Shown in pieces: positions 13,501-40,165 of a stretch of DNA of 64,000 nt. The notes beneath the pieces are model-generated. The model had not been told where the DNA came from. It did not search any database and worked only from the letters and a program-made list of their open reading frames with translations. The stretch comes from Limnohabitans sp. INBF002 (lineage in GTDB: Bacteria; Pseudomonadota; Gammaproteobacteria; Burkholderiales; Burkholderiaceae_C), in contig NZ_AP027055.1 in the NCBI RefSeq assembly GCF_027924905.1, forward strand, positions 1,302,001 through 1,366,000, read 5' to 3'. The first letter of the stretch is position 1; every line of letters starts with the position of its first letter. The translations under genes and the position numbers were made by a program.

Positions 13501-16500
13501 CGCTCACGGTGATGGCACCGGTCGATGTGTTGGCACCTGTGAGCTTGACCGTGTTGGCCCGTTGCTTGGTCAAGGTGCCAGCGCTTTGTACGCCCGCGAA
13601 GGTGTAGTCGGTGGTTGAATCTAACAACAAGCCACTATTGGCTTGCACATTGCCAGACAACAGGCGACCGGCAACGCTACCCAATTCACCAATGCTGATT
13701 TTTTTGCTGCCACTGGCGATGAGGGTTGCAATGTCTGCATCACCCAGCACAAAGCCTGTTGAGGTGGTGCCACCCAAATTCAAAGTACCAGCACCGCTCA
13801 GGTTTTTGTAATACAAGTTGCCTGCGCCTTGCGATGCACCTTCGCTCACCGTTAAACCTGCACCCACCTCAACGCTCAATGCAGTAGAACTGGTTTCGCC
13901 ACCGAGCCACCAGAGTGTGAAGTTAGACACACCTCCCGACGCGGCAAAAGTCACTTTGCTATCCCCTAAGGAGCGAATGACCAAGCTATTGAGACTGTGC
14001 CCTTGGAATGTCAGGTTGCCCTTGATGTTGTAGCCCGCACCCGATCCTGTCGGTGTAGCACTGCCCGAAATAATGATGCCAGCGGTGCCACCATCCACCA
14101 CCGTGGTGGCGGTCAAGTTGGTGTTCACCACACCTGTCAAAGTGACCGCATGGCTGCCTGTGTTCTCGACAACACCCGTGCCCGTGATGCTGATGCCATT
14201 GGCAAATGAGGCTGCAGCGGCTGTGTCAAAACTCAAACGGCTAGCCACCGACACACTGCCAGTGCCTAATGCATTGCCAGCACCGCCCACAATCAAATTA
14301 CCAACAGAAACCGTCGTGACGCCCGAGTAGTTGGTATTGCCCCCAGTCAAGGTCAAGGTACCCGAGCCCGACTTGGTCAAACCACCCGTACCCGCCATCA
14401 CGCCCGCATAAGCCACGCTCTTCGAAGCATCCACACTGAACGTGCCACCACTGGCATCCAAAGTGATGCCACGGTTGGTGTGGAGTGTGAAGCTGTCGGT
14501 GGCCTGCAATGTGCCGCCGTTGAGGGTGATTAGGTCTGGCGTGGCACTGACAGGTGCGGCACCGAGGTAGCTGTCAGCCGCCACTTGCAACGTGCCTGCA
14601 ATTTGTGTCTTACCCGTGTAGCCCAACTCTGGGCTCAACGGGGGCTTGGCCACCACAGTGAGGCCCGTTGGAATGATGGCCAATGCCACGTTGCTGCCGT
14701 CAGGCAACACACCCGTCGGTGTGGTGGTGCCGGTCACGGCCCAGTTGGCGGCGTTTGACCAGTCACCACCCGATGCACCCACGTAGGTGGCAGAGGCCAG
14801 CTGATTGATATTGGCTGTGCCGCCCTGCCCGTTCAGGTTGACGGTGTAGTTGCCCACGTCAGTGCCTGCGATGGTTGCAGCGGTGATGGTCACTGTTTTT
14901 GCTGTGCCCACATGACGTGTATCAAAAGCACCAGTGACAGATGACACGGATACATCATCACCCGTGATCTTGTCGGGCAAGGTTGTGCTGCTGATGCTCA
15001 GGTTGGCGTTGGCGTTGCCGTCATAGGTTTTGCTGCTGATGACCAAACCAGAGAAGCTCAGATCTTTCTTCGCCACCGTCAACAAGCTGCCGCCGGTTTG
15101 GCTCGTGGCATAGCCCAACTTTGTGAAACCATCGGTCAGTGTGTAAGGCGTGGCGCGATACACCAGTTTGTTGCCTGTGGAATACGTGGCGCCTTCAATA
15201 ATGACGCCGAGGCCTGCGACAGCGTCATCACCGTTCACCGCGGTGCGCACAGTAGACAGTGCCGTGGTGCCATCGGGTTTGAAGTTGTTCAGCGTGGTGG
15301 TGTGGTCGTAGCCATACGTCACGGTGAAGCTGTCAATGTTTGTCGTTGCCGTCGGTTGTTCGCGGTAAATCGCATTGATCACATTGGGGCTCAGCGCCAC
15401 AGAGTAACGGGTCGCGGCTTCGTCCGAGTTGTAACGGAAGTGGCCTGAGCCGCTGCCCACCAGGTCGGTCAACCCAGTGCTACCCGTCACGCTGCCGCCC
15501 ATCAGGCGGATCACGCCGTTCGTGCCAGCTGTGAGAGTGGGCGTGCCAGAAACAAGAATGTTGCCGCCCGTTGATGTGCCAGCCGCCGTGTTTTTGCCAG
15601 CATTCAACAACACGGCATTGGCGGTGGTGCTGGTGGTCACCACATCAGCAGCCACCGTCAAATCACCGCTGAGTGTTTCAATGCGCACATCACCCGTGGC
15701 CGTGATACCTGTGGGGTTGACCGTGCCAATCGTCAATGCACCGCTGTTGACATACGTCAGGCTGCTCACACCGCTGGCGGCCAAGGTGCCCACGTTGTTG
15801 CTGGTGTGGTCCAAGGTCACCGCGCCACTGAGCAAAGCCAGTTTGTCAGCCGTGATGTAGCCTGATGCGCCATCGGTGATGGTGGTGCCCGTGAGCTTGA
15901 CGGTGCTGTTGGTCGCAGTCAGCGGCGCGTTGATCGCCAGGGCTCCGCCGTAAACGGTGATGGGGCCATTGGCTGTCAACGTTTGGTCGATTGTCAACGC
16001 TTGCGTGTTCAAGGGGCTGCCGAATACCAAGCTGCCCATGGTTTGGCCATTGGCGTTGAAGGCGAACTTGCTGCTGTTAAAGGTTTGCCCAAACGATGCC
16101 GTGCCATCCACGCCCTGCACTTTGACTGCACCCGTGGTCCCTATGGCAATGGTGGGCGTACCCGTGAGCAGCTTCAAATAAACCGTCACATCAGACGAGC
16201 TGGTGTCTAAGCCCGCCACCCCCGACTTAGAACCGAAAGTAATGTTTGTCGTGGCCGCGTAAATGCCTGAGGTGGCATCCGAGTTGAGCCAACGAATGGG
16301 ACCAGAGACGGCCAACACGTCCACTGGGCTGTAGATAGCCGAGCTCCAATTGTTTGACACACCACTCAGCGTAATACCACCCAACGCTGCAGTGGCATAC
16401 ACCTTGGTAGACGCGCCGCGCAGCGACAGGCCATGACTGCCACCGCTCGTGCCAGTACCCACAATCGAAATGGCATTTGACGTGGTGTTACCAGACTGAA

Positions 16501-19500
16501 TGACCGTTTGTGTCACACCATCTGTCGCATAAGGTGACGTGCTGTTCACCCCGAAAGCAATGCCGTAGCGCGTGGCTTCACCGCTGAGGTTGATCAGGCC
16601 CGTGGCAGAAGTGATGTTGAGGGTGCCACCGCCTGTGGTGAGAACGCCCATTTGTGTGTCGCTCGGTGTTGCAGCAGCGTCGACAACACCCACCACATCC
16701 ATGCGGCCACTGGTGGTGGTGAGGCTGCCTGTGGTCGTGGCTGACAACAAAACGCCAACCTTCAAATCAGACGAACCGCGCAACACCAACGCACCCGCAC
16801 CCGAGTTCAACGTGAAGCTACCCGTGGTCGAAATACCAGCGGTGCCCACACCACGGGCATAGCCATCGGGTGTGCCATCGTTGGCAGTGCTGCCATTGGC
16901 GCCATCGTCAGCGCCACCCGCCAGCACCAAGTTGCCGCCACTGGTTTGGATGGATGCGCCACTGCCTAAAGAAATGTTGCCAGCACCCACGCTGTCGCTG
17001 TTGGCCCACAACACCACATCGCCGCCGGTGGTGGTGATGGACTTGCTGCTGCCCAACACGATGTTGCCCGAAGCTTTGAGCAACACATCGCCAGCATTAC
17101 CACCCGCCGTGGTGTTGATGTTGGCGCTGATGTCAATCGTGCCACCGTAAATCTTGACGGGGCCTGACAGGGTTAAGTTTGAACCAATCGTGATATTGGT
17201 GCTTGAGTCTGGTTTTCCTAAAGTCAATCCAGAAAGGCTGTTGGCAAATGTATAGCTGGGCGTGAACGATGCCGCGGTAAAGGACGCACTGCTTGGCTCA
17301 ATCGTCACCGCACCTGCACCTGTGAAACCGATGGTGGTGGGCGCCACATCGTTTTGGAACACCAAGCCACCGGCCACATCTGTCGCGCCGGTGTAGGTTT
17401 GCGCGCCTGTGAGCGTGAGCGTGTTGCTGCCGAGTTTGTTCAAGCTGCCTGCGCCAGAAATGGCGTTACCCACCGTGGTCGCCGCGGAATGATTGAATGC
17501 CAGTGTTCCCGTCACTGTGGCTGCGCCAGTACCCAACGTGCCCGTGCTGCCGCCATTGCCGACTTGCAGCGTGCCTGCGCTCACCGTGGTGGCGGCATAG
17601 CTGTTGGCGCCAGTCAAGATGAGCGTGCCCGCGCCTGCTTTTGTTAAGCCAGTCCCTGTCACGGGCCCTGCCCATGTCACGCTGCTGCCTTCGGCTGTGT
17701 TGAGTGTGGTGCTGCCTATCAAGGTCAAACCACGCTTGGCTTGGGTTGCTGTGGTGAACACTGGGTAGAAATACAAAGTCGCGTTGTTCACCACCAGCTG
17801 AGCGGCTTGCGTGCTGGTTGGGGCTGCGCCCAAGTTGTCATCGGTGCTGATGGCCAAAGTGCCAGCATTCACATAGGTGGCACCGGTGTAGGTGTTGGTC
17901 GCACTGAGGGTCAAGGCGCCTGCGCCCTCTTGCTTGACTTCACCCGTGCCTGAAATCACATTGGCAATGCCCATGGCGTTGCTGCGCTTGAACACCAAGG
18001 TGGCGTTGTTGACGATGTTGCCGCTGCCTAAGTTGCCCGTGGTGGTGGCATCGCCCACTTGCAACGTGCCTGCACTGATGGTGGTGCTGCCGGTATAGGC
18101 GCTGCCACCGGTCATCACCAACGTGCCTGCGCCTGTTTTGCTCAAACTGCCCGCACCGTTGAACAAGCCCGCCATGGTTTTGCTACCGCTGGCCACGTTC
18201 ACGTCCAAGGTGCCACCCACGGTCAAGGTGGTGCCTGCTGCGCTTTCAAAGCCGCCGAGCGTGGCGTTGTTGTTGACCACCAAAGAACCGTTTTTGAAAT
18301 TCAGCTTGCTCAACGCCACCGAGTCTTGGTAAGTCAGGCTGTCCACCAACACAATGCCTGACAACGCCCCTGCGCTGAGGCCAGCCACGCTGTCATCAAA
18401 GCTGATGGCTGCGCCGCCTGCGCCGCTTGGCACCAGCACTGTTTTGACGTTGTTCAAATCGGGTACGACGCCGGTGAGCGACAAGTTGCCCGTCACCGCC
18501 CAGTTAGCGGGGTTGAACCACTCACCCGTCGCACCGCCCACCCAAGTGACCGAATCCAAACGCGTCACATCAGCCGAGGTGCTGCCTGTGCCCGACACCA
18601 AATAGTTGGTGGCATCGGTGCCTGTCAAGGCCACGCCATACACGCTGATGGTTTTGCCTGTGGCCACGTTTTTGTCGGCAAAACTGGCCGTGCGGGTGAT
18701 GTCAAACACATCACCGCTCACACGCGTGTCGGTGGTGGTCACTGTGGCCACAGCAGTGCCGTCATACGTGCGGTTCACACCGGTGTAGGTCACGGTCAAG
18801 TTGCGCAGACCAATGCTGCCGGCCCCTGTGGCACTGGTGGGCAAGGTGTAGTTGCTCAGCGTGGTGCCGGTGTCGGCGGTGAAATCACTGGCGACCAAAT
18901 TGGCCGTCACGCTGTTGGCTGTCAGCACGTTGCGGCTGTTGTAAGCGCCTTGCGTTTGGGTGATGGTGGCGTGTTCAGTTGTGCCACCCACCGTGACAAA
19001 ACCGGTGAGGTTGTAGTTAGCCGAGGTCAATGCGGCATCGGTGTTGCCGTTGTAGGTTTTTTGAATGCTGCCGGTCAGCACAACCGACAAAGCCTTGGGC
19101 GTGATGTTGGCCGATGCACTGCCCGTGCTGTCCACGCTGTAGTTGGCCGCATCGGTGCCGCCTAGGCTCACACCTGTGACGCTGATGTTCACCGGCGCCA
19201 CGTTGTTGTTGCTGTCGTACGCCACGTTTTTGTTAACGAAATTGGCAGTGCGAGAGACCGTCAACACGTCGCCGTTCACATACCCATTGGTTGAGGTGAG
19301 GCTGGTGGTCACGCTCGCATTCAGCAGCCCGTCGTACTCTTTGGTCACGCCGGTGTAGGCCACCGTCAAGGTGCGCGGTGTGATGTCGGCTGTCGTGCTG
19401 CCCGTGGCCACCACGCTGTAGTTGTTGGCGTCGGCACCCGTCAGGCTCACACCGCTCACGCTCACGGCTTTGGCAGTGCCGACGTTTTTGTCGGCAAAGC

Positions 19501-22500
19501 TGGCTGTGCGATTGATGGTGAGGTCGTCCAGCGTTTGACCCACGCTCAAACGGTCATCGCTGATCGTAACCGTAGCAACCGTTCCGCCGTCGTACACACG
19601 GTTGTCACCGGTGTAATACACGGTCAGTACACGTGGGGTGATGTTGGCAGATGTGCTGCCCGTGGCCGCCACCGTGTAGTTGCCCGCATCCACCGACGTG
19701 ACGCCCGACGGGTCGCTCAAGCTCACACCTGTGACACTGATGGTTTTGCCACCGGCCACGTTTTTGTCACCGTAGTTGGCTGTCCAGTTGACGATGAAGT
19801 TATCACCCGCCACACGGTTGTCAGTGGTGGTCACGGTCGCGGCGGTGCCCGCGTCGTACACCTTGTTGATGCCGGTGTAGTTGATGGTCAAGGCGCGTCG
19901 CGTGATGTCGGCACTGGCGCTGCCTGTAGCGGCCACCGTGTAGTTGATAGCGTCTGTGCCACCCAAACCCACACCGCTCACGCTGACGGCTTTGGCGGTG
20001 CCCACATCTTTGCTATCGAAGTCAGCGCTGCGGCTGATGGTCAAGGTGTCACCTGCCACACGGTTGTCGGTGGTGGTCACGGTGGCGGCGAGAACGCCGT
20101 CATAGACCTTGTTCACACCTGTGTAGTTGACTGTCAGCGCACGTGGTGTGATTTCGCCATTGCTGGCGGTATAGGTGGTGGTGGCAGCGTTGTTGCTGTC
20201 AATCAACACATAGTTGGCCGCATCGGCTCCGCCGAGTGCCAAGCTGGTGAAGGTGTAGGTTTTGTCGGCGGCGCCCGTGACGTTTTTGTTGGCATAGGTA
20301 CCCACGCCGCTGAGTGTCACGGTGTCGGTCACAGACGCGCCGCTCACCAAGCCAACAGGCGCCAAGATGTAGTTACCCAGCACAGCGGTGTTGCCGTCGT
20401 ATTCTTTGGTCACGTTGGTGGCGTTGGCTGTCAGCGACTTGGGCGTCACTTCATACCCACCCACCACGTTGATGGTGTTGCTGAAGTTGCCACTGTTGGT
20501 GGTGATGGATGTGGCCCCCACGCTGTAGGTGCCCACCTTGAGCGTGCCCGAGCTGCTGAGCGAAGGGTTGCTTGCACCCAAGCTGAAGCTACCCACGGTG
20601 GTGCTGCCGTCGGTCACTGTCACTTGGTTGCCGCTCACGCTGGCTTGGCTGGGGTTGCTCGCCAGCAGGTCGTTCACGGTGTATGTGGTCACGCTGTTCG
20701 CAGTCGCCGACGACAAATACCCCGCAGCTGTCAGTGTGTAAGTGGGGGTGCTGCCATAGGTGGCTCTGGTGTCGGCCACTTTCACCAAGAGCTGGCCAAC
20801 AGGCACGATGGTGTAGTCGCCGTTGACGTAAGTGATGTTGTAGTTGCTTGACGTCAAGCCCGAGGGCACCAACACGCGGGTGTAAGTGCCATGCGTATCT
20901 TGGGTGTCTACGCTGTTGGCATCATTCGCAAGTTGAGCACTGCGGTCACGCGCAATGGCCAAAGTACCGCCCAACACCCCCGACGTTTGTCCGCCCACAA
21001 AACCGCTGTAGCGAACGCCTGCGTAGTTGGTGTCATCGGTCAGCGAATAAAAACGTGCATCGTTGTTGGCCGTGATGGTCAACGGTGCTGGTGTGATGGT
21101 GGCGTTGGAGGCCACCCATACCAAACGGTAGTTGGCGGCACGCGTGCCTGTGAGCTGCACGCTGCCTTGGTCCATCGATACGGTGCCTGCATCAGCACTG
21201 CTGAACACGGGACGCCCCGTCAAGGTCATGCCACCCGAAAGCAACTTATCTGCCGCCAGTGCATCGGTGTAGAGCTGGCTGTTGTTGGCGCTGGTCACGC
21301 TCAAGCTGCCGTAGCCTGTGGCAATGCCCGACAAAGCAGGTGCCACGGATGTGGTGGCGTCGTACACCTTGGTCAGGCTGGCATCAGCGGGCAGCTGCAC
21401 ATCCAGCGGCACGATGCGCGCGGTGGTGCTGGCCTGCGAGGTGATCGTGTAGTTGCCCACATCAGTGCCGCTGTAGCTGCTGGTGAGCGTGACGGTTTTG
21501 CCTGTGGCGGCATTGGCATCGCTGAACACGCCTGTGGCGCTAACGTCAACCACATCATTCAACACCAAGCCCGTTTTCACCGCACCGCTCACCGACACAG
21601 TGGCAGCTGTGGTGTTGTCATAGGTTTTATCAGTGGCCGTGATGCCGCTGATGGTCAAAGCCTTGGGCGTGATGTTGGCCGTGCTGGTGGCTTGGTTGGT
21701 GATGGTGTAGTTGTCTTTGTCGGCACCGGCGTAGCTGCTGGTGAGCGTGACGGTTTTGGCTGTGCCCACGTTTTTATCGGCAAAGGTACCCGTGGCCGAA
21801 GCCGTGACCACATCGCCACTGATGAGGCCGGCCAAGAACACATTGTTGGCATTGATGGTGGCAACCAAGCCGCCGTCATACACACGGTTGTTGGCCACAA
21901 AGCCTGACACCGTCAAGGCCTTGGGCGTGATGGTGGCCGTGGTAGTGGCCTGGCCTGTGATGGCGTAGTTCGCTAGGTCTGTGCCGTTGTAGCTGCTGGT
22001 CAGGTTGACGGTGCGGGCAGTGCCTGCTGCCTTGGCGGCAAACACACCTGTGGCAGACACATGCAAATCGTCACCGACCACTTGGCCATTGAACACGGCG
22101 TTGGTGGTGCTGACGGTGGCGTTGGTGGTGGCGTCGTACACCTTGTCGTTGGCAGCGATGCCTGACACGGTCACGCTCAAGGGGTTGATTTTGGCGCTGG
22201 CTGTGAGGTTGCCCACGATGGCGTAGTTGCCAGCTTTGGTGCCTGACAGTCCCAAGCTCGACGCGGTCAAGGTGACTGTTTTGGTGATGACGGTGCTGCC
22301 GCTGTAGGCCACGTTTTTGTCGGCAAAGGTGGCCGAAGCGCCTGAGGTGACCAAGATGACGTTGGCTGTATCTCCTGCCAACACACCGGTGAGCGTGCCA
22401 AAGTTACCGATGGTGGCGACCACTCCGCCGTCATACGTTTTGTCGTTGGCGGCAACGCCTGTGAGCGTGAGTGACTTCGGCGTGATCTTTGCAGTCGTGG

Positions 22501-25500
22501 TGGTCGGGCTGCCTGCAAAGCTGTAGTTACTCACGTCCGCCCCGCCGTAGGTGCTGGTGAAAGCCACCACTTGCGCGGCCAAGGCCGAGCCGCTGTACGC
22601 CACGTTGGCGCTGCCATAGGTGCCGGTGGCAGCCACGGTCAGCGCGTCGCCCGCCACCATGCCGTTGAACACGGCATTGCTTGTGTTCAAGGTCGCCGAG
22701 TTGGTGCCGTCGTACACCTTGTCGTTGGCGGCAATGCCTGTGACGGTGATGGCCTTAGCCGTGACAGTGCCGTTGTTGGCCGTGAGGCTGCTGCCCGTGG
22801 TCAGGCCATAGTTGCCAGCATCTGTGCCGCTCAAGGCCATGTTGCTGAGGGTGTAGGTTTTGTTGGTGCCGACGTTTTTGTTGGCATACGCGCCTGCGCC
22901 GCTGATGGTCACCACGTCACCGGTCACCACACCAATCGGTGTGCCCGACAAACCTGCAATGGTGGTGGTGCCGTCATACACCTTGCTGATGGTGGGCGTA
23001 GGCGCAAAGAACTTGGTAGTCACCGTTTGTGAGCCCACCACGTTCACTGAATTGTTGAAGTTCACACCGCTTGACAACACCACGCTGCTAGGGTCAGCCT
23101 TCCATTGATACGTGCCCACGTTGAGCCAGCCCGAGGTGCTGTTGGTGCCGTTCAAAGCCACCGCGTTGAACGTGGCCGATGCGCCGCTGGTGTCGGTGAC
23201 CGTGACCTGCCCTGCCCCGCTCACACTGGCACTGCCTGCGCCGGTGTTAAGCAAGTCGACCACGCCGTTGTTGGGCAACATGTACTTGGCTTCGGTCACG
23301 CTGTAGGTGGGGGTGGTGGCGTACACATTGCTGACTGTGCCCAAGCGCACCAACAACTCGTTGGCACCGACGATGGTGTAGTTGCCATTCACATAGCTAA
23401 AGCTGTAGTTGGTGGCTGCTGCCCCCGAGGGCACCAACACACCGGTGTAGCTGCCCGCTGTGCCCACGCTGCTGTTGCTGCGTGCGATGGTGGGCAAGGT
23501 GCTGAGGTTGCTGCTGCTCTCGCCGCTGGCAAAGCCGACATAGCTCACGCCGTAGTAACCGGCTGTGTCGGTTTGGCCTGCAAAACGGGCGTCGTTGTTG
23601 GCCGTGATGGTCAAAGCCTTTTTGGTGATGTTGGCGCTTAAGCCAGTGGGCTGGGTCAACGTGTAGTTGCCCACCATCGCACCGGTGATGCTGTCAGCCG
23701 CTGTCACAGCCAAGCCTGTGCCCACATTGGCACTGGCAAAGGTGCCGGCTTGCACCAAGGTCAAGCTGTCGTTGTTGACCACACCCACCAAGCTGCCACC
23801 GGTCAGCACAGCGCTGGTGGTGCCGTCGTAGGCTTTGTTGGCCACGGTGGTGCCCGTCACTGTCAATGCTTTGGGGTTGACCGTGATGGTGCCGGGCGTG
23901 GCATAGGTGATGGTGTAGCTACCGGTCGATGTGCCCGGCGCCACGGTGATGGCATAAGGCCCGCCACTGACCGAGGCCGTGGCCACCAAGCCCAACGACG
24001 ACACCGTGGGGTTCACGCTGAACACATCAGCCAACGTGGGCAAGGTGTACACCGGCGAACTGCCCGAGCTGCTGGTCAGGCCCAACACATCGCTGGCCGT
24101 CAGCGTGGTGCCATAGGTTTTGGTGGCGCTGGCCGTGACCGTGACCGACGGTGTGCCAGTGAACAAATAGCGGTTGCCCGTAGCGGTCACAGCAGATGGC
24201 GTCATGGTGGCGTAGCTAGCGTTCCACACCGCGCCGTTGGCGCTGTTGAGGTTGCCAAACACATCGTTGGCGGGCGATGCGCTGTACACCAACCAGCGGC
24301 TGCCTGTGCCCGTGGTGCTGAGTGCCGAAGCGCCAGCGTTGTTGATGAAGTTGCCTGTGGCCGCCAACGCGATGTAGCCGCTGTTTTGGCTGTCGGTGAT
24401 GGTGGCGCCTGAGTTGAGGGTGATGTTGCCGCCGGTCAGCAAAGTGACGTTGTCCACGAAGCTGTTGGCACCGCCCACGGTGATGTGGCCTGCGTCAGAT
24501 GCGCCCAACACGATGGAGCTGAAACCATCTTTGAATACCGAGGTGCCGCTGAACAAACTGCTGCCCACTGTCCAAGTGCTCCCCGTACCGGTGCCCACAC
24601 CGATGGTGGTGTTGGCTGTGTAGGGCTTGAGGGTGAGCGTGCCACTGCTTTGAACCGTGGCACTGCCATAGTCAATCAAATCACCAATGAAGGTGATGTC
24701 GCTGGATGACGAAGGGACGCTACTTCCCGATTTAAAACCAATGGTCGCGCCTTGCCCACTGATGGCTAGGTTAGCGCTGTCGTTGACACCCCTGATGGTG
24801 ATGGGGCCTGACTTGGCCAAGACGCTAGAACCACCCAATCCAGTTGCAACGTCAACTGCGGCTGTACCTGACTTTCCTGTGATGGAGATGCCGCCACCAG
24901 TACCTGTGGCCTCGATACTTCCGCCGAAATTGATACCCAAACTTGCATTGGTACCGTTGACCGCAGAAGCATCCCCCTCAACCATGATGGCCTGAGACGT
25001 GGTGTTAATCGAGCGCAACGTGTAACCGTTGCCATAAGAAGAAATGGCTTGAGCATTGACAGTAGCCGAACCAGTAGCCTTGCCAGAGATAGAAATTTTT
25101 CCGACGCCGGAGTCTACTGTCACGCCCCCACCCATCACACCAAATGACATGACATTGGCAGACGTGTTCACGTTCTGCCCACGCAAGATGATGTCGCCAC
25201 CACCGGAAGTGAGAGAAGTGCCAGACTGCAAGTTCACGCCGGAGATGTAAAGATCGTAAAGGGGCTCAGTCACCGAGTCACGTGTGGCCTCGCCGCGTGC
25301 GTAACCCGTGGTGATATCAGTGCCACCACCCAAGGTAATCGCACCACCCAAACCACCGCTGGTAGTAATAGATGAATTGGTCGACATCTGCGCATAGCCT
25401 GTGCCGTTGCCATCGCTATCGGCCCAGAAGGTGACGTCACCACCCGTGGTGGTGATGGTCTTGCCGCTTGCCAGTGAAATATTGCCTGAAGCCTTGAGCA

Positions 25501-28500
25501 AGATGTCGCCATTGGCTGCGCCACCAGTGGTGTCGAGATTGGCACTCACATTGATGGTGTTCGCATACACACTGATAGGCCCATTGATGGTGGTGTTGCT
25601 GGCAATCGTTACCGTATCTGTGTGCGCTGTGGTACCCGTGTCCTTACCAATGGTCAAACCGCTGACATCTGCACTGAGATTTAAGTTGGTGACAGGCCAA
25701 GACAGCGCGCTGGTGAAAGACGTGGCGCTAGGTTGCAAGGTCAACGTGCCGCTGGTGTAGGTGTTGACGCCTGTGCCGGCCGAGAGCGTGTTGCCTGTCA
25801 GCGTGATGTTGGCTGTGGATGTGGTCACCAAACTGTTGGCACACGTCGCCACCGCGCATCGGCCCATGGGCGTGACTGCGAGCGTGTAACCACCCCCCGC
25901 ATATTTGGCAAACGCAATGCCTGCGGTGCCACCGTCCAAAACAATCGGACCACTGGCTGACAAGAAGCCTGTGCCGTTGGTACTGATACCTTCGTAGCCG
26001 CCCCCTCCTACGCCAGTCAGGCTGATACCACCAGCACCTGTGGCTTGGAACAGGCTTCGGCCTTGGGTGCTTGCGTTGTTATAAAACCCAAGAAGAATGC
26101 CCAAGCCTGTGCCTTGCCCATTCAAACTAATGGCTGGCGTGCTGGCACTGCCCCCGCCAGCCACCATATTCATGGCTGAAACTGTACCGAGGTCAAAACC
26201 GTAACCATTGGTTGAAACAGCGACCAAGTTGATGGTGCCAGCACCTGCATTGAGCTGCATACCACTGCCCCAAAACGCCGAGCTTCCAGTTGACTTGGCG
26301 CGCATCAAGATGTTGCCGCCACCCGAATAAATGGAAGCCGTGTTCAAGTCAATGCCACGCGTACTAGACGAAATGGCGTAGCCATCGGGAATACCGTCAT
26401 TCGCCGTACCACTGTTGGCGCCATCATCAGCGCCACCCGCCAAAGTGATGTTGCCACCACCTTTGAGAGTGGTGCTGTTTGCACTGGCACCCGCTCGACC
26501 CGTATTGGTGCGAGAGTCAATCACAGCTGTAGTGCCGACAGAGATATAGCCATCCGTACCCGACGCCCTGTTGGCCCAATAGGTGATGTCGCCGCCGTTT
26601 GTTTTGACTGTCGTACTGGCGGCTTGTGTGATGGTGCCCGTCCCTTTGAGCAGAATATCTGCCCCTAAAGCGGTGCTGCTCAATGAGCGATTGACCGTGA
26701 TGTCAGCGCCATACGCCGTGATAGGGCCAGCTACGGTGACATCGGCGGTGGAGAACCCAACATTCAGGGCATTGGTTGTTTTACCAATCGTTAAACCCGT
26801 CATGGGTTGGCCGATGGGGTTCCAAATAAACCAGCTGGTGTCAACATCACGCGTGAATGAATTGGATGTGGACTGCCATGTCACCGTCCCTGTGGTGTCG
26901 ATGTTGGGGTAACCAGAGAAGTTGTAGTTGTCAAATTCAATCAGCACATTGCTGTTGGTTGAGGTAACCGCACTGCTCGCCGCAGAGCCCCACCACTGTG
27001 TGGAACCGTTGCGCAAATACAAAGCCGATGCTGCGCCACTGGCGCCTAAACCACCCGCTTTGATGTTGATAGGCCCACCATTGGCCAGAATTTGGCTGCC
27101 ATTGCGAATCAGGACCGCCCATTCATTGGCAGTGCCGATGATGGAAATGCCGCCACCAACCCCACTGGCCACGATGCGCTGGTAAGTGGCTGTTGAATAG
27201 CCTTCGTTACCTGTACCCAAATCCACGCCATGGTTCCAACCTGCACCTGATGAGGTGGCTGAACCCAGTAACTTGATCGCATCTGAACCGGCATAAGCAG
27301 ACTTCAGATCCACACCGTAATAGGTGCTGATACCAATTTTGTAAGAGCTGGTGCCTGATGAGCGGCTGATGCCTTCTAAGTAAATCTTGCCCACACCACT
27401 GTCGGCCACAAAGCCTGCACTACCCCAATGGGCAATGCCCCAGGCTTGATAGCCGCCGCCCACAGCGCCAGCCCAGCTTCGGCCTCGCATGGCAATGTCA
27501 CCACCACCTGAGAGCAAGCCCAAATAACCATCTGAGGTAATGCCGCCTGCCACTGTAGAGCTGACACCCGAGGCATAGCCCGTACCTGCTTGGTCGCCAC
27601 CTGCTAGGGTGATGGCACCACCGCCTGTGCCTGTGGTGCTTTTGCTACCCGCCAGACCAGTGCGGGTGTCGACGGTCAAGCCTGATGTGCTGACATAAAT
27701 ACTTCCAGAATCATTGCCATCGGTATCGCTGGCCAACAGCACCGCACCACCGTTGGTGGTCAGTGTGTTGGCCGCAGTGTTGCTGGTGATCGTGCCCGTC
27801 GCCATCAGTTTGATGGCTGAACCAGCCAAAGTGCTGGTGAGGTTGGTCTTGAGTGTGAGGTCTCCGCCGTAAACACTGATCGGCCCCGCCGCCGTGATGG
27901 CGCTGCCCAGCGTGACATTGCCTGTGTTCGTGGTCTTTCCAATACGCACGCTGGATGGACCTCCCGAGATACCTAAGGATGTGTTGTCTAACGTCGAGCT
28001 GAAGTTGTTACCTACGGACTCAATCACCACATCCCCCGAGGTCACGAGGTTGGTCTTATAAGAGCCGTTGGCTGCAAAGCTGGCTTTGTCAGCTTGAATG
28101 GTGATATCAGAAGAACTTGTCGTTGAGGAACTGGAAAGCACTGTGGTGCCGTCTGAGCCCAAATTGATGCCTGCTGCACTGCTGGGTTGTAAATACAAAC
28201 CTGTGTAGGTTCCAGTCAGGCCAGTAGGACTGAGGTCTTTAAGAGTGATGCTGCCCGAGCTAGACAACAACTTCAAAACACTGCCAGAAACACCCAGACC
28301 ACGCGAGGTACCCGACGCCTTACCACCCGTTCCTGTGATGTTGATTGCGCCTGCTTCGGTTTGAAGCACTGCGCCACTACCTAAGTTCACGCCCCAGGCC
28401 CAGTCTGTGGTGGTGGTGTTGGTGGCGTCACCCGTGATGCTGAGAGTGCCAACACCTGAGGTTTTGATGTCAGAGCCAAAAATCGAAATAGCAGCGTCGC

Positions 28501-31500
28501 CAAGGCCTGCTACACCCGTGGTGCCCCAACTACCCGTCAAACTGATGTTGCCGCCACCTGCGTTAATGACCGCGCGTGAACCGGTGGTGGCACCAATAGA
28601 AATTGCCTTGTCAGCTGCGGCGGTGTAGCTACCACCCGCTGCGGCGTAGGTGATGTCATTTCCGTTAGACAACACCGAAATACCCGCCCCTTGCACAATG
28701 CTGCCGCCTCGAATGCTGATGGGGCCAGCAATGTCGATGTTGGCGCCAATCGTCATAGCCGCCGTATTGGTGCTGCTGCCCATGGTCACGCCCGTGAGCG
28801 TGTTGGCAAAACTGTAGTTAGTCGTGAACGCGCTGCTAAAGCTGCTATTGGCCGCAGGTGCAATGCTCACGGCGCCCTTGCCGCTAAAGCCCGAGGTGCT
28901 GGGCGGCACATTGAAGTTGTAGCTGATGCTGGTCGGCGTGGCTGTGGCCGACAAAACCGTGGCGCCACTGTAGCTGGCGCCACCATTGAGCGTGAGTCCG
29001 CCCGTTGCCACCGTCAAATTACCCGTGCCGCTGAAAGCGCCTGTGTACGTCAGTGCGTCTGAGCGGTTGAAGATGAGTGCGCCATTGTTAATCACTGCGG
29101 CACTCAACGCGCCTAATGATCCAGCCAAGCCGCCCATACCCACCTGCAACGTGCCCGCACTGATGGTGGTGCTGCCACCGTAGCTGTTGGTGCCCGTGAA
29201 CGTGAACTTGCCGCTGCTAGCTGGATTAACCGTGAGCGAACCCGTGCCGGTGATGTTGCTGCTGATGGTTGCTTCTAACGCCCCCAAAGTTAGGGCACCG
29301 CTGGATGTGAATGTTTGTAGCGTGTAGCCCAATGCACTGCCCGTGCCGTTGGCCACTGTGCCGCCTGTACCAGCAGCCGCGCCCAAATAGCGCACCACCA
29401 CCAAGCCCGAACCGCCCGCGCCACCCGTTCTTGAATTGGCGCCGTTGGACGATGCACCTCCACCACCAGAGCCTGTATAAGCACCTGCAGATGCGCCATT
29501 GGCATACGAGTAACTGCCACCATCACCGCCCTCTGCATAAGTCACAGCAGAGCCACTGATAGAGAGCGACAAACCTAAACCACCAACGCCCCCAGTGCTC
29601 GTGCCGCCCGCACCGCCGCCGCCGCCAGCCAACGAGGTGCTTGAGGTAGAGCCACCGGCATAACCCTGTCCGGCAGTACCAGCGCCAGCACCGCCGCCGG
29701 AGCCCCCAAACGAACGGCTGCCGCCACCGCCACTGCCGCCTGCTGCGCCATTGCTGCGCTGTGCACCGCCGCCACCGCCAATGGCGATGAGGCCACTACC
29801 CAGCGCTGAATTACTGCCATTGGTTCCTGATGCACTACCAGCGCCACCAGTACCACCTGCACCCACGGTCACCGCATAGGAGGTGCCAGACAAAGAGGTA
29901 GAACCATAAAGCAAACCGCCCGCACCACCACCACCGCCTTGGCCTGAGTCATAAGCGCCGCCGCCGCCGCCACCGCCGCCCAAGACGAGGTAGTCCACAT
30001 TGGCGTCATAGCCAATGGTGGCAGCACCATCCAAACGGATGTTGTTGGCAAAGCTGGTAAGGCCACGGCCCAGCAACATGGTGCTGTTGTTGGCCATGAT
30101 GAGCATGCCCGCGCTGATGGCTGACGTGTTGTACAGGCCTAAAGTGCCACCACTGACCGTGGTGGAGCCACCGTAGGTGTTGGTGCCCATCAAGTTAATC
30201 TTGCCGCCCGTGGCGTTGGTGGTCAAAGCACCCGAACCGCTGATGTTGCCAAGCAGGGTGCTGTTGATGGTTGACATACCCAGCGTGCCAGAGGCATTGA
30301 ACGTCACCACCACCATACCGGCCATAGGGCCAGCGGTGATGACGTTGGCTGTGCCACCCGTGGTGAGCACGCTGCTACCTGCATAGGCAACCACCACCAC
30401 ACCTGAGCCACCGCTGGCACCGTTGTTATAGGTTGTATTGGTGGAATAAGCGCCACCCCCGCCGTTGCCCGTGTTTGCTGTGCCAGCCACAGGGCTGTTG
30501 GCGTTACCGCCCGCGGCATATGTGACGGTAGTGTTGGTAATGGCGCTGGTCACGCCTGGACCACCTGTGTAGCCAGATGCAGCGCCACCTGCGCCAGCAC
30601 CACCCACGTTGGCAGAGTAAACACTGCCAGCACCACCTGCAGCAGTTACAACGCTACCGATAGAAGAGCTGCCACCTGCCACAGTTTGACCGCCACCCGC
30701 TCCGACCGTGATGGCGTATTGGCCCCAATCAACGCCATAGCCACTGACCACTTGACCACCTGCGCCACCACCGCCAGCCTGTGGGTATCTTTCCCATGAG
30801 GCGTTGCTACCACCGCCACCGCCACCCACGACCAGGTATTGCATGGCTATACCCGTGGCAATGGTGGCATCACCATCGAGCTGAATGTTGTTGGCCAAGC
30901 TCACATTACCTAGCTGCAACGTGGTGCCTGAGCCAAGTTTGACCAAGCTGGTACCCAGGCCTGTGTTGTTGTAGACGCCTAAAGTACCTGCGCTCACGGT
31001 TGTGTCGCCGCTGTAGGTGTTGGCTGCCATCAGGTTCACGCGGCCTGAGCCCAATTTGGTCAGTGAGCCGCTAGAAAGGCCCAACCCACCCACCGATGTA
31101 GCGCCAGCCCCATCAAACGTGAGGCTGTAGTTACCCGTGATGGCATTACCCGTGCTTGGCACCAATGAGAGCGAGCCTGCGTCAGATTGAATTTTTGTAT
31201 CGCCTGTGAGCGTGACCGCCCCTAGGACCGAGTTGGTTCCCGAGAGGTTTCGCAAAGCCCCCGTGCCACCTATGCCCGTGCCTTGCACCGTGAGGTTGTC
31301 GGCTGTGGACACGCCGCCGCTGAACTGCAAAGCCGCGCCATTGGCCACCGTGGTGCCAGCAGCCGCAGAGCCTAAGGCGTTGGAATGGGCCACGGTCAGT
31401 GCACCCGCGTTGACGTTGGTAAGACCTGTGTAGTTGTTGTCGCCACTTAGCGTGAGGGTGCCAGTGCCTGCTTTGGTGAAGCTACCAAGGCCCTGCACCA

Positions 31501-34500
31501 CGCCTGAGAGCGTCAAGGCGTTGCTGCGGTTAACCGTCAAATTGGATGTGGCAGATAGCAGTAAATAGTTAGCCCCTGCCGCAAACGCACCGGTGGTACC
31601 ACCATTACCCAGCTGGAGCGAACCGTCATACACCATGGGGGCGACGCTATAAGCCGAGTCGCCGGTGAGCGCGAGCGCACTGCTGCCTTCTTTGATGAAG
31701 TAGCCGCTACCCGACATGGCACCGGCCCAAGTTTGGGCAGCGCTGGTATTAAAGATGAGCAAGCCATTGTTAGTAACGGTGCTGCTGGCCAGACTACCTA
31801 ACTCTAGGGTACCCAAGGCCGTTTGGCTGTATTGGGGAGCGCCTGATGAGACCGTGGTCGTGGTGTTTGAGAGAGTTACCCCTCCCGTGAAGGTGTTGGT
31901 GCCCGTGAGAGTGACTTTGGTCGTGGTGTAAAGCGTATCAACGCCGTAGCCAGATGCACCGTTTGAGCCAGTCGCTAGGCCCATGCTGCTAGCCCCGACT
32001 GTCATGTCGGTTCCCAGATAGTTGCCAGTTTTGTAGCCCGCCCCAGTGCCAGTGTTATTGGAGGTATCGGCCACAGCTTGGACATTGCTGCCACTTTGAA
32101 TCAGCTTGACGTACACAAACTTGGTATAGGTGCCGTCATACATTTGCACCTGTGCATTGGCTGTGTTGGTCAGTGGATTAAATGTTTTGAAATAAATGCC
32201 AGCTTGGGGTGTGCCGGTGATTGCTGTCCCGCTTTCCCGCGCTCCGGAGAGCCGATACAACACCTCAGCAACAGTACTATCGTTAGCAATGTTGACTGGC
32301 GTGGTTGTTAAATAGCCACTGTACAAAGCCGATCCTCGCGTGATACCTGTCACTTGCAACCCACCCGTACCGCTGATGTTGTAAGCCCCCGTCGTGTCAA
32401 CGTTTGTGTTAAATGCCAAGGTGCCGTTGTCAACAATGTTGGTCGACGCCAAGCTGCCCGTGCTGCCGCCATTGCCCAGCTGCAAAGTACCCGCGGTGAT
32501 GGTGGTATCGCCCGCGAAGGTGTTGGTGCCTGTGAGCGTCAATGTGCCCGTGCCCAGCTTGGTGAGGGTACCGCCCGAGCTGGTGAGTGCGCTTGTCCAT
32601 GTCACGTCGCGGCCGTTGGTGTCGATCTTGTAAGCCTGGCTGGCCGCATTGCTGGCGCGTGACGAGTAGTCGGTATTGTTGTTGGCGCTGTATTGCAAAG
32701 TGCCGCCACCAAAACCGAGGGTGCCCGACGAGCCCAAAGCGCCGCTACTGTTGACGTTCAAAGTACCTGCGTTGATGTTGGTGCCGCCTGTGAAGGTGTT
32801 GGCGCCAGACAAGGTGAGCATGCCCGTGCCGTTTTTGGTGAGGGTGGCACCCGTGCCTGTGAGGAGGTGCGAGAAGGTGATGTTGCCTGCGCCCGAGAAT
32901 GTCACGTTGCCATTAAAGATGGAGCGATAGGTTGGGTACCCCGAGCCAGCATCGGTTAACCCCCACGTGATGCCTGATGTGGCTGAATCAAAGGTTGCAC
33001 CACTCGTCCCTACCGTGAAACCACGGGTGCTTGCTGAGTCACTGGCGCCTGAGTAACGAAGCGTTCCGCCGTTGATGACCAATGCGTTTGCATCGAAGAA
33101 ACGCTGCCCCAAACCGCCTGTGCCAGCCCAGCCCCAGTTGGTCAACTCCAAGATACCGCCGGTGTTGACGGTGGTGATTGCTGTTGCACTGCTTGCAATA
33201 CTCCCCGAGTCGTAAATGGCCCCCGTGCTTGCAATTTTCAGGGTACCGGCGTTGACTGTGGTGGCGCCTGAATAGCTGCTGGAGCCACTGAGTGTGAGCG
33301 TGCCCGCACCTGCTTTAGTCAAGCCACCCGTGCCGCTGATTGCACCCGTGATTGAACCAGCACCAGAGTTAGTGACCGACAGACCACCTGCGCCAGCGTT
33401 GATGGCCCCTGCTGTCAATGCCCCCGAAGTCATGGTCATGCCAGACAAGGCGCGAGTTGAACCAACTGCGCCTCCCATGGTGACGCCGCCAGCCCCTGCA
33501 TCAATCGTCAAACCACTGTTCCCGGTCACGCTGGTTTTGGCATTGCTCAACGTAAATCCGTTAACAGCCCATGACTCATCCACCACATCGCCATCGAGGG
33601 CGCCTGTCATCCTTAAGGTGACTGACGAAACGTTCGGCGTTGTAATAGCAATGCCAATGCGGCGGTCCATTTGGTCAAAGTTACCGCGGTTAGAACCAAA
33701 TAGGTTGCCTTCTTGTTTGAGCGTGACCGCATATGAATAGCCACTCACCGAACCACTGGTATTGGTAAACGCCGTGCTCCAATTGGGTTTCAACGTGAAC
33801 AAATCAGTGAATGAAGCACCACCGTTGCTGCTAACCTGAACCTTAAAGTATTCGGCAGCAGCACCATCCCACGAGTCGATGGCGTAGAAGTTGAAGTTCA
33901 GCCCGACCGAGCTGTTGTTGAGGTTGTTGAACGTCAAATCAATCGACTGATTAACAAACTGTCCAAACGCCCGCTGGTTTTCAAAAAATGGGTTGGTTGA
34001 AGCGCCACTGATTTGGTTAAAACCATAAGTGGTGGCTAGTGAATCAAAGTTACTGTCAGATGTGACATCAAAAATTCGCTGGAACAGGCTGTCGGTTGCG
34101 TTGTCAACCGTGCCATTGAAGTTGACAGCACCGCCACCCGTATTCAGAACCAAGTTAGCCGCTGTCGCGCCGTTGTAAACAGCCAAGAAAGTCGAACCAT
34201 TGACTGTGAACGAGCCACCCGTTTCACCAGTGCGAACTGTGCTGATGGTTTGCCCAGTCACACCTTGAAAAACAATGTTTTCACCTGTAAGCGTTACATT
34301 GCCGCCCAATGTTGTAACGTTACCGCCTACACGAATTTGGTCACCAGACGAGTTGTTGTCGTGATCAGAAGTCACCACCAAGTTCAACTTGCCATTGCTT
34401 GAGCTGATGGCCTCATTCAAAAAGATATTCCGCGAGGCTTTCAATGTCAGCGTTGTGGTGGCACTACCCGCATAGCTGATGGGCGAGTTCAACAAAATAT

Positions 34501-36601: not shown

Positions 36602-38386
36602 TCAGAAAGGAACGGTGACTTGCAGCCAATAACGGTTGCGGTCGCGCGTGCCGTCTTGGTCGTTGCCGGTTTGCGTGGGGTTGGGGTTGTGGCCTTGGCG
36701 GCGCGCCCATGTGGCTTTGAAGTTCACCCCATCGTCGTTGGTGTAGCCAATGCTGGCACCAAAGCCTTTGTAGGTGTTGCGGTTGTGTTGCGGCCCGCCG
36801 GGGTAGGACGGGTCATGTTGCAGCCACAGCTGGCCCCAGTCATAAAAGCCGGTAAGGTTGATGCCAGACTCAAGGCTGTGGCGCAGCTCAAACTGAATCA
36901 GTTGCGCATCGGTGCCCGAGCCCTCGCCCGTCGGATAAGCACGCACGCCGTTCATGCCGCCTAGCTGCATTTTTTCAGACGAATCCAGGTTCTTGTCGGC
37001 CAGCTGACCGGTGTACGACACAAAGGCTGTGGTCTGGTTGGTAAGTGACTGTTGCCAACTACCCATGACGCGTAGCTTGTTAAAGACACCTTCGGTGTGC
37101 ACGGTGGTGGCATCGGTTTGCTGACTGAGAGAGCCGTCCAAATTGATGCTGCCATGCGCAATCTGTAATAAATAGGTACCCGTTCCACCGCCCGGGTTGA
37201 GGTCACGGTAAAAGCCTGCGACCTGCGCAGCCATGACTTTGGCCTCGTAATCAGACATCAACAAGCCTTGAGCCGAGGTGTTTTGAAACTTTTTGCCATC
37301 AGCACTCAGCGTGACCGTGGCGCTGCGGTCGTCAGCACGCAACAGCGGGTAGACCCATTCCATGCCCTTGGTGATGGCTCGGCCCACGGCGCCCACCATG
37401 CCCTGCTCGCCCACGACCACTTCATAGCTCATGGCTGACACGTTCAGCCCCATGCGCCAACCGTCAGTGCCAACGGGCATGCTGTAAGCCAAGCGGGCGT
37501 AGTCGCTGCCTTGGGTGTGAACGGCCACGACGTTGAGTAAATCGGCCAGGTCGTTGGGGTTGAACCAATTCAGCGTGGCCATCAAACGCATCGCGCCTGT
37601 GGACCGAGAGCCGCCGTTGTCCATGGTCAACTCCGCCTGACGCGTGCGGCCTTGGTACAACTTAAGCAATAACTCTGTTTCACCGGCTTCGCGGCCTTGA
37701 CGCAATGAGCCTTGGACGCTCATGCCCGGCAGGTCATTGGCCAGCGCTAAGGCGCGGTCCAGCGACTTGGTGTTCAAAGGCTCGCCCGTGTGTTGCTGGG
37801 CTTCGATGATGGCAGTCACATGCGCTTGGGTGTTGGGCAAATCGGCAAGCTCTTGCTCGATCTCGACTTTGGAGAACACCGATTCAATGACATCCACCAC
37901 CAACACGCCGTCGGTCAGGTCTTGTGGCGGCAAGATGGCACGGGCCAAGTAGTTGTTCTGTCGGTAATACGACTCCACCACCATGCCGATTTCCAGCATT
38001 TGCTCGTAGCTCATGGGGGTGCCGATGTAGGGTTCGACAATGCCTTTGAGCTCCATGTCGCCCAGAATGGTGACGCCTTGGAATTTGATCGATTTGAGAG
38101 TGATGAGTGCCTGAGCGGCTTCAGCCGCTTCTTTGTCGGCCAGCATTTTGTCCATGGCGGCACCCACGGTGCCTGGCGCGTAAGCCGCATGGGGCTTGGG
38201 TTCGGCAATCTTTGTGCCGGTGATGGCCTCGGCCCATTCGGTGACAGGCAGGTCGGTTTTTTCCTCAATCGCGCGCAGCACGCGGCCTGCCTGCTTTGGC
38301 AAAACAGGGTCGTAGATTTCCAACGACCCAGCCAAAAGACACAGGAACGCAATCGCTGCAATGATTCGCGACCGAGTTAACTTCAC
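36602..38386 (-). CDS. TpsB outer-membrane transporter (ShlB/FhaC/HecB family)
   Basis: 594 residues. It exports the TpsA protein across the outer membrane. After an N-terminal hydrophobic segment (8-20; possible cleavage after AGS, residue 21) there is an atypical charged helical extension to about residue 95. POTRA1 spans about 96-171 (ITLKSIKFQG...VVDVIES), POTRA2 about 185-244, and the 16-strand barrel about 250-594. The barrel carries the Omp85/TpsB lid-lock loop signature VRAYPTGEG (481-489) and ends in a C-terminal Phe, as outer-membrane beta-barrels do. The stop is 3 bp before the longest tpsA frame, so the two are one operon. The extension replaces the usual proline-rich H1-helix linker, which instead appears in the small POTRA protein upstream. 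Confidence 0.9.
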   Translation of the reverse strand: MKLTRSRIIAAIAFLCLLAGSLEIYDPVLPKQAGRVLRAIEEKTDLPVTEWAEAITGTKIAEPKPHAAYAPGTVGAAMDKMLADKEAAEAAQALITLKSIKFQGVTILGDMELKGIVEPYIGTPMSYEQMLEIGMVVESYYRQNNYLARAILPPQDLTDGVLVVDVIESVFSKVEIEQELADLPNTQAHVTAIIEAQQHTGEPLNTKSLDRALALANDLPGMSVQGSLRQGREAGETELLLKLYQGRTRQAELTMDNGGSRSTGAMRLMATLNWFNPNDLADLLNVVAVHTQGSDYARLAYSMPVGTDGWRMGLNVSAMSYEVVVGEQGMVGAVGRAITKGMEWVYPLLRADDRSATVTLSADGKKFQNTSAQGLLMSDYEAKVMAAQVAGFYRDLNPGGGTGTYLLQIAHGSINLDGSLSQQTDATTVHTEGVFNKLRVMGSWQQSLTNQTTAFVSYTGQLADKNLDSSEKMQLGGMNGVRAYPTGEGSGTDAQLIQFELRHSLESGINLTGFYDWGQLWLQHDPSYPGGPQHNRNTYKGFGASIGYTNDDGVNFKATWARRQGHNPNPTQTGNDQDGTRDRNRYWLQVTVPF

Positions 38387-38509: not shown

Positions 38510-38947
38510 TTAGCGTGAAGAGCTAGGAGGAATGGTCTCAATCACCTGAATAACCAGCTCGTCCCCCGTCAACGCTTGACGAGGAATGTAGGCCTGCACC
38601 ACCCAACCAGTTTGGCGGTAGGCCTCGGACACGGCATGGGTCAGTTGCTGCAAATCGTGTGCGGTCAAAGGCCGATTGGCAAAAGGTGCTGCCACCACTT
38701 GGAGCCGATCGGTCGCCAAGATCTTGTTGCCATTGAACTTAAAGCGCTGAGCCGTGACCACGGTGGCGTCGCTCAAAACCAAGGCGGGCGGCAAGGCTTC
38801 GCGTTTTTGAGCGGCTTGCTGCATCTGGTTTTGCCTGTTGCTTTGCTCGATTTGACGCATCAAAGCGCCCGCATCAGGGATGTTTTGAGCCCATGTGCCG
38901 CTGCACAGCACTGCCAAAACAGCAGCCGCTAACGATGTGTGACGCAT
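38510..38947 (-). CDS. free-standing single-POTRA periplasmic protein
   Basis: 145 residues. A signal peptide ends at TWA-Q (20/21). A Gln-rich helix follows (DAGALMRQIEQSNRQNQMQQ), then a PP linker, then one POTRA domain (about 67-136, RFKFNGNKIL to LVIQVIE), with the stop just after. This is the layout of a canonical TpsB N-terminus (signal, H1 helix, POTRA1) without POTRA2 or a barrel. AGGGGG lies 6 bp before the ATG. It is 123 bp upstream of tpsB on the same strand. Either it is a remnant of a duplicated tpsB or a separate chaperone-like POTRA subunit that helps deliver TpsA. The frame is intact and no barrel remnant follows, which favours a standalone product. A small stem (38503-38516) overlaps the stop. 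Confidence 0.75.
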   Translation of the reverse strand: MRHTSLAAAVLAVLCSGTWAQNIPDAGALMRQIEQSNRQNQMQQAAQKREALPPALVLSDATVVTAQRFKFNGNKILATDRLQVVAAPFANRPLTAHDLQQLTHAVSEAYRQTGWVVQAYIPRQALTGDELVIQVIETIPPSSSR

Positions 38948-39085: not shown

Positions 39086-39364
39086 ATGATTCTCTCAATT
39101 TCACACAAAGCTTTAGCCCTTTTCTTTAAAACGGGGCAAACCAAAGGGATACAAGCCATTCATGCCACTCGCCTGCGAGATTTATTGACCACATTAAATG
39201 TCGCAGTTGGCCCGCATGATTTGAAACGCCCCTCTTGGCGGTTACACGCCTTGTCAGGTGACAAGGCTGGCTTTTATGCCATGACCGTCCAAGCCAATTG
39301 GCGACTGACATTTCGATTTGTAGGTGAAAACGTGGAGCTATTGAACTATTTGGATTACCACTGA
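39086..39364 (+). CDS. higB: HigB-type toxin (RelE/ParE superfamily)
   Basis: 92 residues. It matches the HigB family: the start MILSISHKALALFFKTG resembles the usual HxGLxxFFxTG opening, then IQAIHATRLRDLL, WRLHALSGDKAG, and NWRLTFRFVGENVELLNYLDYH at the end. Family members are ribosome-dependent mRNA interferases. The gene order toxin-then-antitoxin, with a 9-bp gap to higA, is characteristic. The start is fixed by the family N-terminus even though no ribosome-binding site is visible. The locus sits between the TPS operon and tRNA-Lys, a usual place for accessory modules. Confidence 0.88.
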   Translation: MILSISHKALALFFKTGQTKGIQAIHATRLRDLLTTLNVAVGPHDLKRPSWRLHALSGDKAGFYAMTVQANWRLTFRFVGENVELLNYLDYH

Positions 39365-39373
39365 AAGACAACA

Positions 39374-39688
39374 ATGAAATCAAAAATGCACAACCCCACA
39401 CCTCCTGGTTCCCTACTTGCAGGATGGCTCAAAGACCTCAATGTAAGCGTGACAGCTTTTGCCCAACACATTGGCATCAGCCGTGTGATGCTCTCACGAC
39501 TTATCCATGGGCATGCAGCTGTCAGTGCAGATATGGACTTGCGCCTATCCGAAGCGCTTGGAACATCGGCAGGGTTTTGGTTGGCACTGCAAAACCAACG
39601 CGACCTTTGGCAAGCGATGGAAACGGCCAAAGCTCGTGCGCCAATTCAGCCTGTGTCGATGGCTAATCCGATAACGCTTTCTTCTTAA
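39374..39688 (+). CDS. higA: HigA-type antitoxin (XRE family HTH)
   Basis: 104 residues from the first ATG; a second in-frame ATG at 39386 (MHNPTPPG) matches the usual family start better. The helix-turn-helix is at about residues 26-46 (VTAFAQHIGISRVMLSRLIHG pattern), followed by LSEALGTSAGFWLALQNQRDLW, the HigA/VapI signature. It should neutralise HigB and repress the operon through the palindrome at 39061-39083. Its end overlaps the convergent hypothetical gene by 26 bp. Confidence 0.88.
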   Translation: MKSKMHNPTPPGSLLAGWLKDLNVSVTAFAQHIGISRVMLSRLIHGHAAVSADMDLRLSEALGTSAGFWLALQNQRDLWQAMETAKARAPIQPVSMANPITLSS

Positions 39689-40136
39689 ACACCTCTGGCA
39701 AATTGCATTCCGCCAGTTCGGCTTCTAGCTGGACATCGCCAATCAAGTACTCACCGCGTTTGGCGAAGTTGTCTTTCATGCGTTTGCTGTAGACCTCCGA
39801 CACATTGGCCACCGCTCGGTTGACGGTTTTCATGGTGTCTTTGCTTTTCATGCCGCGTTTTTTGTCGATTTCTCGCTCATTGGCCTCAGACAGCACCATG
39901 TAGTGTTGCGCCAAAGATTCGAAATCTTGCGCACCTTTTTTCTGGCCTTTGCGCAGCAAAAGCGCCGACACATTCAGTTGCAAAGCCGCACATCGGTTGT
40001 ACAGATAAGACAAACGCGTGCCGTCACCGTAGGTTTGGTACTGTTTGCGCACTTCATCAAATGTGGCCAATTCAGCCGCTTGAATCGGCAAAGCCACTGC
40101 CATGGCGATGAGGAAATAGAGTTTGTAACTTCTCAT
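39663..40136 (-). CDS. small periplasmic protein of unknown function
   Basis: 157 residues starting at ATG 40136; a longer frame to 40157 adds seven residues that do not resemble a signal n-region. A signal peptide (MRSYKLYFLIAMAVALPIQA-A) precedes a Lys-rich, mostly helical domain with two Cys (NRCAALQLN and AECNLPEVF) that could form a disulfide. No family recognised. It is convergent with higA, with overlapping ends, and divergent from the small TPR gene. Confidence 0.6.
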   Translation of the reverse strand: MRSYKLYFLIAMAVALPIQAAELATFDEVRKQYQTYGDGTRLSYLYNRCAALQLNVSALLLRKGQKKGAQDFESLAQHYMVLSEANEREIDKKRGMKSKDTMKTVNRAVANVSEVYSKRMKDNFAKRGEYLIGDVQLEAELAECNLPEVFKKKALSD

Positions 40137-40165
40137 ATTTGATAGTGAAACTGTCAATTTTTAAT

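Follow-up and report, generated by a model that had tools for sequence, protein, structure and literature searches.

The window, which is the whole 64,000-nucleotide stretch of DNA that was analysed, contains a two-partner secretion (type Vb) locus. A small gene, a gap of 123 bp, tpsB and then tpsA follow one another on the minus strand; the TpsA has an N-terminal TPS domain and its gene directly adjoins tpsB on the same strand. The features of the locus are listed in Table 1.

Table 1. Features of the locus, numbered from the first letter of the window
Feature	Position	Strand	Basis or remark
tpsA, 11,674 aa; TPS domain aa 79-330	1574..36598	-	ORF, Pfam
tpsB, 594 aa, GTG start	36602..38386	-	ShlB 1.3e-21, POTRA_2 3.2e-11; CdiB 6wim by profile
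TpsB POTRA1, aa 96-168	37883..38101	-	Pfam POTRA_2
TpsB N-terminal extension without detectable H1, aa 23-95	38102..38320	-	H1-linker profile
Conserved hydrophobic N-segment of TpsB, aa 1-22	38321..38386	-	87% identical, 8 genomes; pS 0.25
Small stand-alone POTRA protein, 145 aa	38510..38947	-	ORF, ATG start, Pfam
POTRA_2 domain of small protein, aa 66-137	38537..38752	-	Pfam 3.6e-13
H1-like helix and linker of small protein, about aa 22-62	38762..38884	-	H1-linker profile, CdiB 6wim alignment
Signal-like N-terminus of small protein, aa 1-21	38885..38947	-	end set by eye at AQ
HigB-like toxin / HTH HigA-like antitoxin pair	39086-39688	+	between 164-aa gene and small gene in window
164-aa protein, signal-like start	39663..40157	-	8/84 genus genomes

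The small gene has AGGGGG four bases before its ATG; a promoter and terminator scan found neither on the minus strand. Its product reads, in order, a signal-like start, DAGALMRQIEQ, PP and a POTRA domain (PF08479; 49.6 bits against a curated cut-off of 24). Residues 21-63 match a profile of the H1 helix and linker built from one-piece TpsBs only (i-E 8e-11), and the small-protein family profile aligns with the solved structure of CdiB (6wim) over H1, linker and POTRA1 (E=3.7e-11). The initial annotation had described this protein as the usual TpsB N-terminal layout followed by a stop, and the open reading frame and both domain matches agree. Among the matches listed, its next-best relatives after other stand-alone genes are TpsB N-termini, at 36-41% identity. 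POTRA domains also occur outside Omp85 proteins in FtsQ/DivIB; these differ in being inner-membrane cell-division proteins with a POTRA of another family and no known link to tpsBA. In the genome itself, a single contig of 2.59 Mb, POTRA_2 occurs at two places only, the small protein and its TpsB, which leaves no second TpsB as a potential partner.

The TpsB has a ShlB-type barrel (PF03865). When the profile of its family is aligned with CdiB 6wim, the match spans POTRA1, POTRA2 and most of the barrel (E=1.4e-20). Both POTRAs are thus kept, as first annotated; POTRA1 is found by Pfam, while POTRA2 has no Pfam match and is recognised only through the alignment to CdiB. The TPS domain of TpsA (PF05860) is matched at 7.8e-41, and three 1,500-aa pieces of the protein that were scanned contain PATR, YDG, MBG_2 and DUF5649 repeats.

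Conservation and selection of the gene pair

The POTRA_2 search covered 84 genomes of the genus and gave a match in 64; among the matches were short frames lying before longer ones of about 600 aa. Thirteen complete pairs of small gene and tpsB are present in 12 genomes, always on the same strand. G450 has a fourteenth small gene, after which a matching tpsB begins but is cut off by the contig end. All 14 small genes seen are open and complete, one of them beside a contig end. The small proteins are 29-94% identical to that of the window (13 compared) and the TpsBs of the pairs 32-99% (12 compared). A TpsB-family search at E<=1e-150 recovers 15 members in 13 of the 84 genomes. These form a single clade (SH-aLRT 100) in a quick tree of 94 of the 104 TpsBs, the other 10 being left out for low profile score.

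The annotation had proposed to look for conservation of the small gene beside tpsB, and had taken its absence or decay in close relatives with the same tpsBA as a refutation. It is intact and directly upstream, at 45-149 bp, in 13 of the 15 clade members. The two exceptions are a truncated gene and a contig end. In G467 tpsB is cut to 420 aa, there is no tpsA in the surrounding 6.2 kb, and the POTRA_2 search found no short POTRA frame in the genome. In G461 (contig C20) tpsB comes after the 3' end of a tpsA, inside which the contig ends; the upstream side of tpsB lies beyond the contig end. The genome-contig scan gave one relative (L033), which by length and sequence is the same contig as that of G419. 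G422 (L067 10549-15744, minus strand) has two tandem pairs with a homologue of the 164-aa gene between them and one tpsA of 11,248 aa; no tpsA directly follows the second pair.

The small gene is under purifying selection and evolves faster than tpsB. Between the window and G399, dN/dS is 0.24 for the small gene and 0.046 for tpsB. Over eight genomes, dN/dS is 0.13-0.44 for the small gene in 19 of 28 pairs, most of them with high dS (the other nine are saturated), and 0.05-0.20 for tpsB in all 28. Within the small protein H1 is the most constrained part (pN/pS 0.33), followed by POTRA (0.42), linker (0.53) and signal (0.79). Decay or a chance reading frame is rejected by the 14 open genes, the POTRA match and the dN/dS values. 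Judged by sequence, the small gene and tpsB form an old unit that is intact and under selection.

Its origin was considered in two ways. Duplication of the neighbouring TpsB's POTRA1 is not favoured; the partner POTRA1s form their own clade (SH-aLRT 98). A single clade of the small POTRAs is not rejected (p-AU 0.79), in a poorly resolved tree of 77 columns. Recent fission of one gene is not favoured either, because the TpsB keeps its POTRA1. The two genes share a reading frame in 7 of the 13 pairs, against 4.3 expected by chance, a count that includes near relatives and is neutral on fission. The mirror-tree correlation of small protein and barrel (0.87) is expected from shared descent and is set aside as evidence.

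The TpsAs beside these pairs are very large. Complete ones have 11,674 (window), 11,248, 10,490, 10,053 and 9,102 aa, and cut ones at least 9,454, 7,442 and 3,241 aa; further cut ones of 1,274, 516 and 502 aa stand where contigs or the sequence examined end early. Close to other tpsBs of the genus, nine closed TpsA-like frames measure 1,207-4,457 aa. These lengths come from a chosen sample. The clade counts as one origin, so the giant TpsA and the split transporter may be linked by descent alone.

H1 and linker encoded as a separate small protein

The locus resembles FhaC/FhaB and CdiB/CdiA, the type Vb systems, in its ShlB-type barrel, two POTRAs and adjacent tpsA with a TPS domain. In FhaC, the pore is filled by H1, which moves out into the periplasm; the linker sits at the FHA substrate site on POTRA2, to which it may regulate access; H1 is dispensable and the linker is essential (PMC5422565). 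In CdiB, deletion of H1 lowers the transporter level and secretion, but deletion of H1 together with the linker is tolerated (PMC7644211). Both transporters carry H1 and linker in the TpsB chain (PMC5422565, PMC7644211), whereas here the two are found in a second protein with an extra POTRA; the partner TpsB has another N-terminus than FhaC and CdiB. Thirteen of the 15 loci retain a third gene, a possible third partner.

The distribution of H1 was followed with a profile trained on 50 one-piece TpsBs of the genus that have the [DNS]AG motif, a match being an i-E under 0.01. The profile matches 13 of the 14 small proteins, none of the 13 partner TpsBs and neither of the two unpaired clade TpsBs. 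The one small protein that it misses, that of the second pair of G422 (G422b), scores 3.2 bits, although PDAGSLM is visible. The FhaC/CdiB form with H1 and linker in the TpsB chain is therefore seen in 0 of 13 partner TpsBs, and other one-piece TpsBs are without it too. Of 38 one-piece TpsBs that lack the [DNS]AG motif, 35 also fail the profile and three match it; all are without a small gene in the DNA examined. H1 can thus be lost without a copy in trans, and what is special here is the persistence of H1 in a second gene. Many one-piece TpsBs without the [DNS]AG motif (L059, L099, L103, L133 and others) have long N-terminal linkers with WVQFPPRP-like repeats, as seen by eye.

The TpsB was initially annotated as having an odd charged extension in place of the helix and linker. 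The missing helix holds, in so far as no H1 is detectable; the charge does not, as 20 of its 73 residues (27%) are charged compared with 21% +/- 7% in the H1-linker stretch of 54 one-piece TpsBs, which is not clearly unusual. What is unusual about this N-terminus is the undetectable H1 together with a highly conserved hydrophobic N-segment. Over eight genomes, residues 2-22 are as conserved as POTRA1 (87% and 86% identical), against 25% for the signal of the small protein. Synonymous divergence in the first codons of tpsB is 0.25, compared with 0.41-0.61. Unlike those of an ordinary signal peptide, the first 22 codons are thus conserved both in the residues they encode and at synonymous sites, and the low synonymous divergence makes a constraint at the nucleotide level possible. 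In most clade members a small-x-small pattern follows the hydrophobic run (by eye), which is compatible with cleavage by signal peptidase; a bolder alternative is that the segment is an uncleaved inner-membrane anchor.

The H1-linker stretch, which many one-piece TpsBs have at the N-terminus, is recognisably encoded here, with a POTRA and a signal-like start, as a separate small protein. Its partner TpsB, in which no H1 is detectable, keeps POTRA1, POTRA2 and barrel and carries a different, conserved hydrophobic N-terminus.

Distribution beyond the genus and other short POTRA frames

No further pair of small gene and tpsB was found among the matches listed for overlapping samples of 399 family, 399 order and 398 phylum genomes. 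About 160 matches were listed for each search, with the best 10 (family), 9 (order, phylum) or 3 (family, TpsB profile) candidates per genome, so that an uncommon stand-alone gene beyond the genus may have escaped detection. Among the matches listed for the TpsB profile in the family sample, only G000 and G080 exceed 1,000 bits; the next genome scores 436. Viral contigs gave no such pair. Twelve plasmid records matched, and the one examined (H3) encodes a full-length TpsB. In the literature searched, which leaves out most subscription papers, no description of a stand-alone POTRA or H1 partner for a TpsB was found.

Eight short POTRA frames from outside the genus were examined; others, such as those of G223 (204 aa) and G816 (104 aa, one stop), were left out. 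L079 and L222 were rejected as stand-alone genes as they end at a contig end, and L080, L223, L224 and L225 as they are TpsBs spread over two frames. The other two of the eight are orphans with a single POTRA, L220 (5952-6536, minus strand, 194 aa) and L221 (2163-2603, plus strand, 146 aa); L074 (3879-4355, plus strand, 158 aa) is a further orphan of this kind. No tpsB was found near them in the sequence examined (12 kb for L220 and 7 kb for L221). Within the genus but outside the clade, a barrel ORF of G416 (L078) is preceded at 6 bp by a short POTRA frame, but this ORF has no POTRA1. The locus was rejected as a further pair; it is one TpsB in two pieces, with no extra POTRA. L078 (5890-11225, plus strand) consists of a POTRA1 piece, then POTRA2 and barrel, then a tpsA-like frame of 1,207 aa, and is either a split gene or a frameshift.

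Possible roles of the separate module

The initial annotation proposed a three-part secretion system in which an extra POTRA is supplied in trans, perhaps as a periplasmic chaperone for a very large substrate. The genomes speak for the three parts: the 13 pairs among 15 clade members, the H1-linker split, purifying selection and the giant TpsAs. As for the chaperone, the anatomy is better matched by a module of H1, linker and POTRA docking on TpsB than by a freely acting protein. The reading towards which we lean, without great confidence, is that of a type Vb locus with a split transporter, whose H1-linker-POTRA module acts in trans. The small protein would be exported to the periplasm and dock on the POTRAs of TpsB, forming a third POTRA on the arm. 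As in the account of FhaC (PMC5422565), its H1 and linker would rest in the pore of the barrel and on POTRA2, until displaced by the TPS domain of TpsA. Being a separate chain, the module could leave the pore entirely while a chain of about 10,000 residues is exported, and would return afterwards as a plug. The separate module with its added POTRA suggests a detachable gate-and-dock subunit, which may be of benefit for giant substrates.

It is also conceivable, if somewhat doubtful, that the small protein is a free receptor for the TPS domain or a holding chaperone, which would capture the TPS domain or nascent TpsA in the periplasm and pass it on to TpsB with no plugging. POTRAs of several TpsBs bind TPS domains, and the need for a chaperone may depend on the size of TpsA (PMC5422565), which is very large here. 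However, a pure receptor would need no H1 or linker; yet H1 is more constrained than the POTRA, and the H1-linker stretch is absent from the partner TpsB. A regulatory or competing subunit, which would hold the substrate site of TpsB and keep the transporter shut until a signal comes, with no help to export, is distinctly unlikely. It has a model in the FhaC linker on POTRA2 (PMC5422565), but alone it does not explain the added POTRA. That the small gene is a functionless vestige, left over from a truncated copy of an ordinary TpsB N-terminus, is highly improbable: the protein does resemble one-piece TpsB starts, and orphan or split pieces do occur (L074, L220, L078), but all 14 genes are open, 13 of 15 clade members have the pair, and dN/dS has the values given above.

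Two known systems with additional envelope proteins resemble the proposed split transporter in part. The Burkholderia bcpAIOB locus, a TPS locus, also has an additional small gene; its product BcpO, which BcpA requires in order to function, is predicted to be a periplasmic lipoprotein in some species (PMC5422565). The account of BcpO in that source mentions no POTRA or H1. In TAM, the Omp85 outer-membrane protein TamA has three POTRAs and acts together with another envelope protein (PMC4104836, PMC11014939). Unlike the present case, the POTRAs of TamA lie in one chain, and TamB belongs to the inner membrane and is no POTRA protein.

If a module acting in trans is the correct reading, a periplasmic subunit of its own can serve a TpsB whose substrate is very large; one paper has described TpsBs as not forming hetero-oligomers (PMC2808357). 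What H1 and linker contribute is unsettled: H1 obstructs the pore and has to vacate it for export (PMC5422565, PMC7644211). With the module on a separate protein, its deletion, titration or exchange leaves the barrel chain intact, which makes the question directly testable.

A more far-reaching proposal, rather unlikely as it stands, is a trans-envelope transporter of several subunits. TpsB would be anchored in the inner membrane by its conserved, perhaps uncleaved hydrophobic N-segment, the H1-linker-POTRA module would be the detachable gate, the 164-aa protein would be a helper in one subclade, and an adhesin of about 10,000 residues would be exported without interruption.

By its distribution, the 164-aa gene is linked to one subclade of the locus; all eight genomes that have it also have a clade tpsB. 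The gene has no match in G447, G449, G450, G461, G468 and G475, some of which are incomplete, and is therefore placed outside the core. Its product has two invariant cysteines in the alignment and no meaningful Pfam or PDB relative. It immediately precedes the small gene, at 9-106 bp, in G399, G419, G423, G400 and G422. Its position is interrupted elsewhere: the toxin-antitoxin pair intervenes in the window, and another tpsB with the start of its tpsA does so in G080. In G467 the 164-aa gene remains beside the truncated tpsB.
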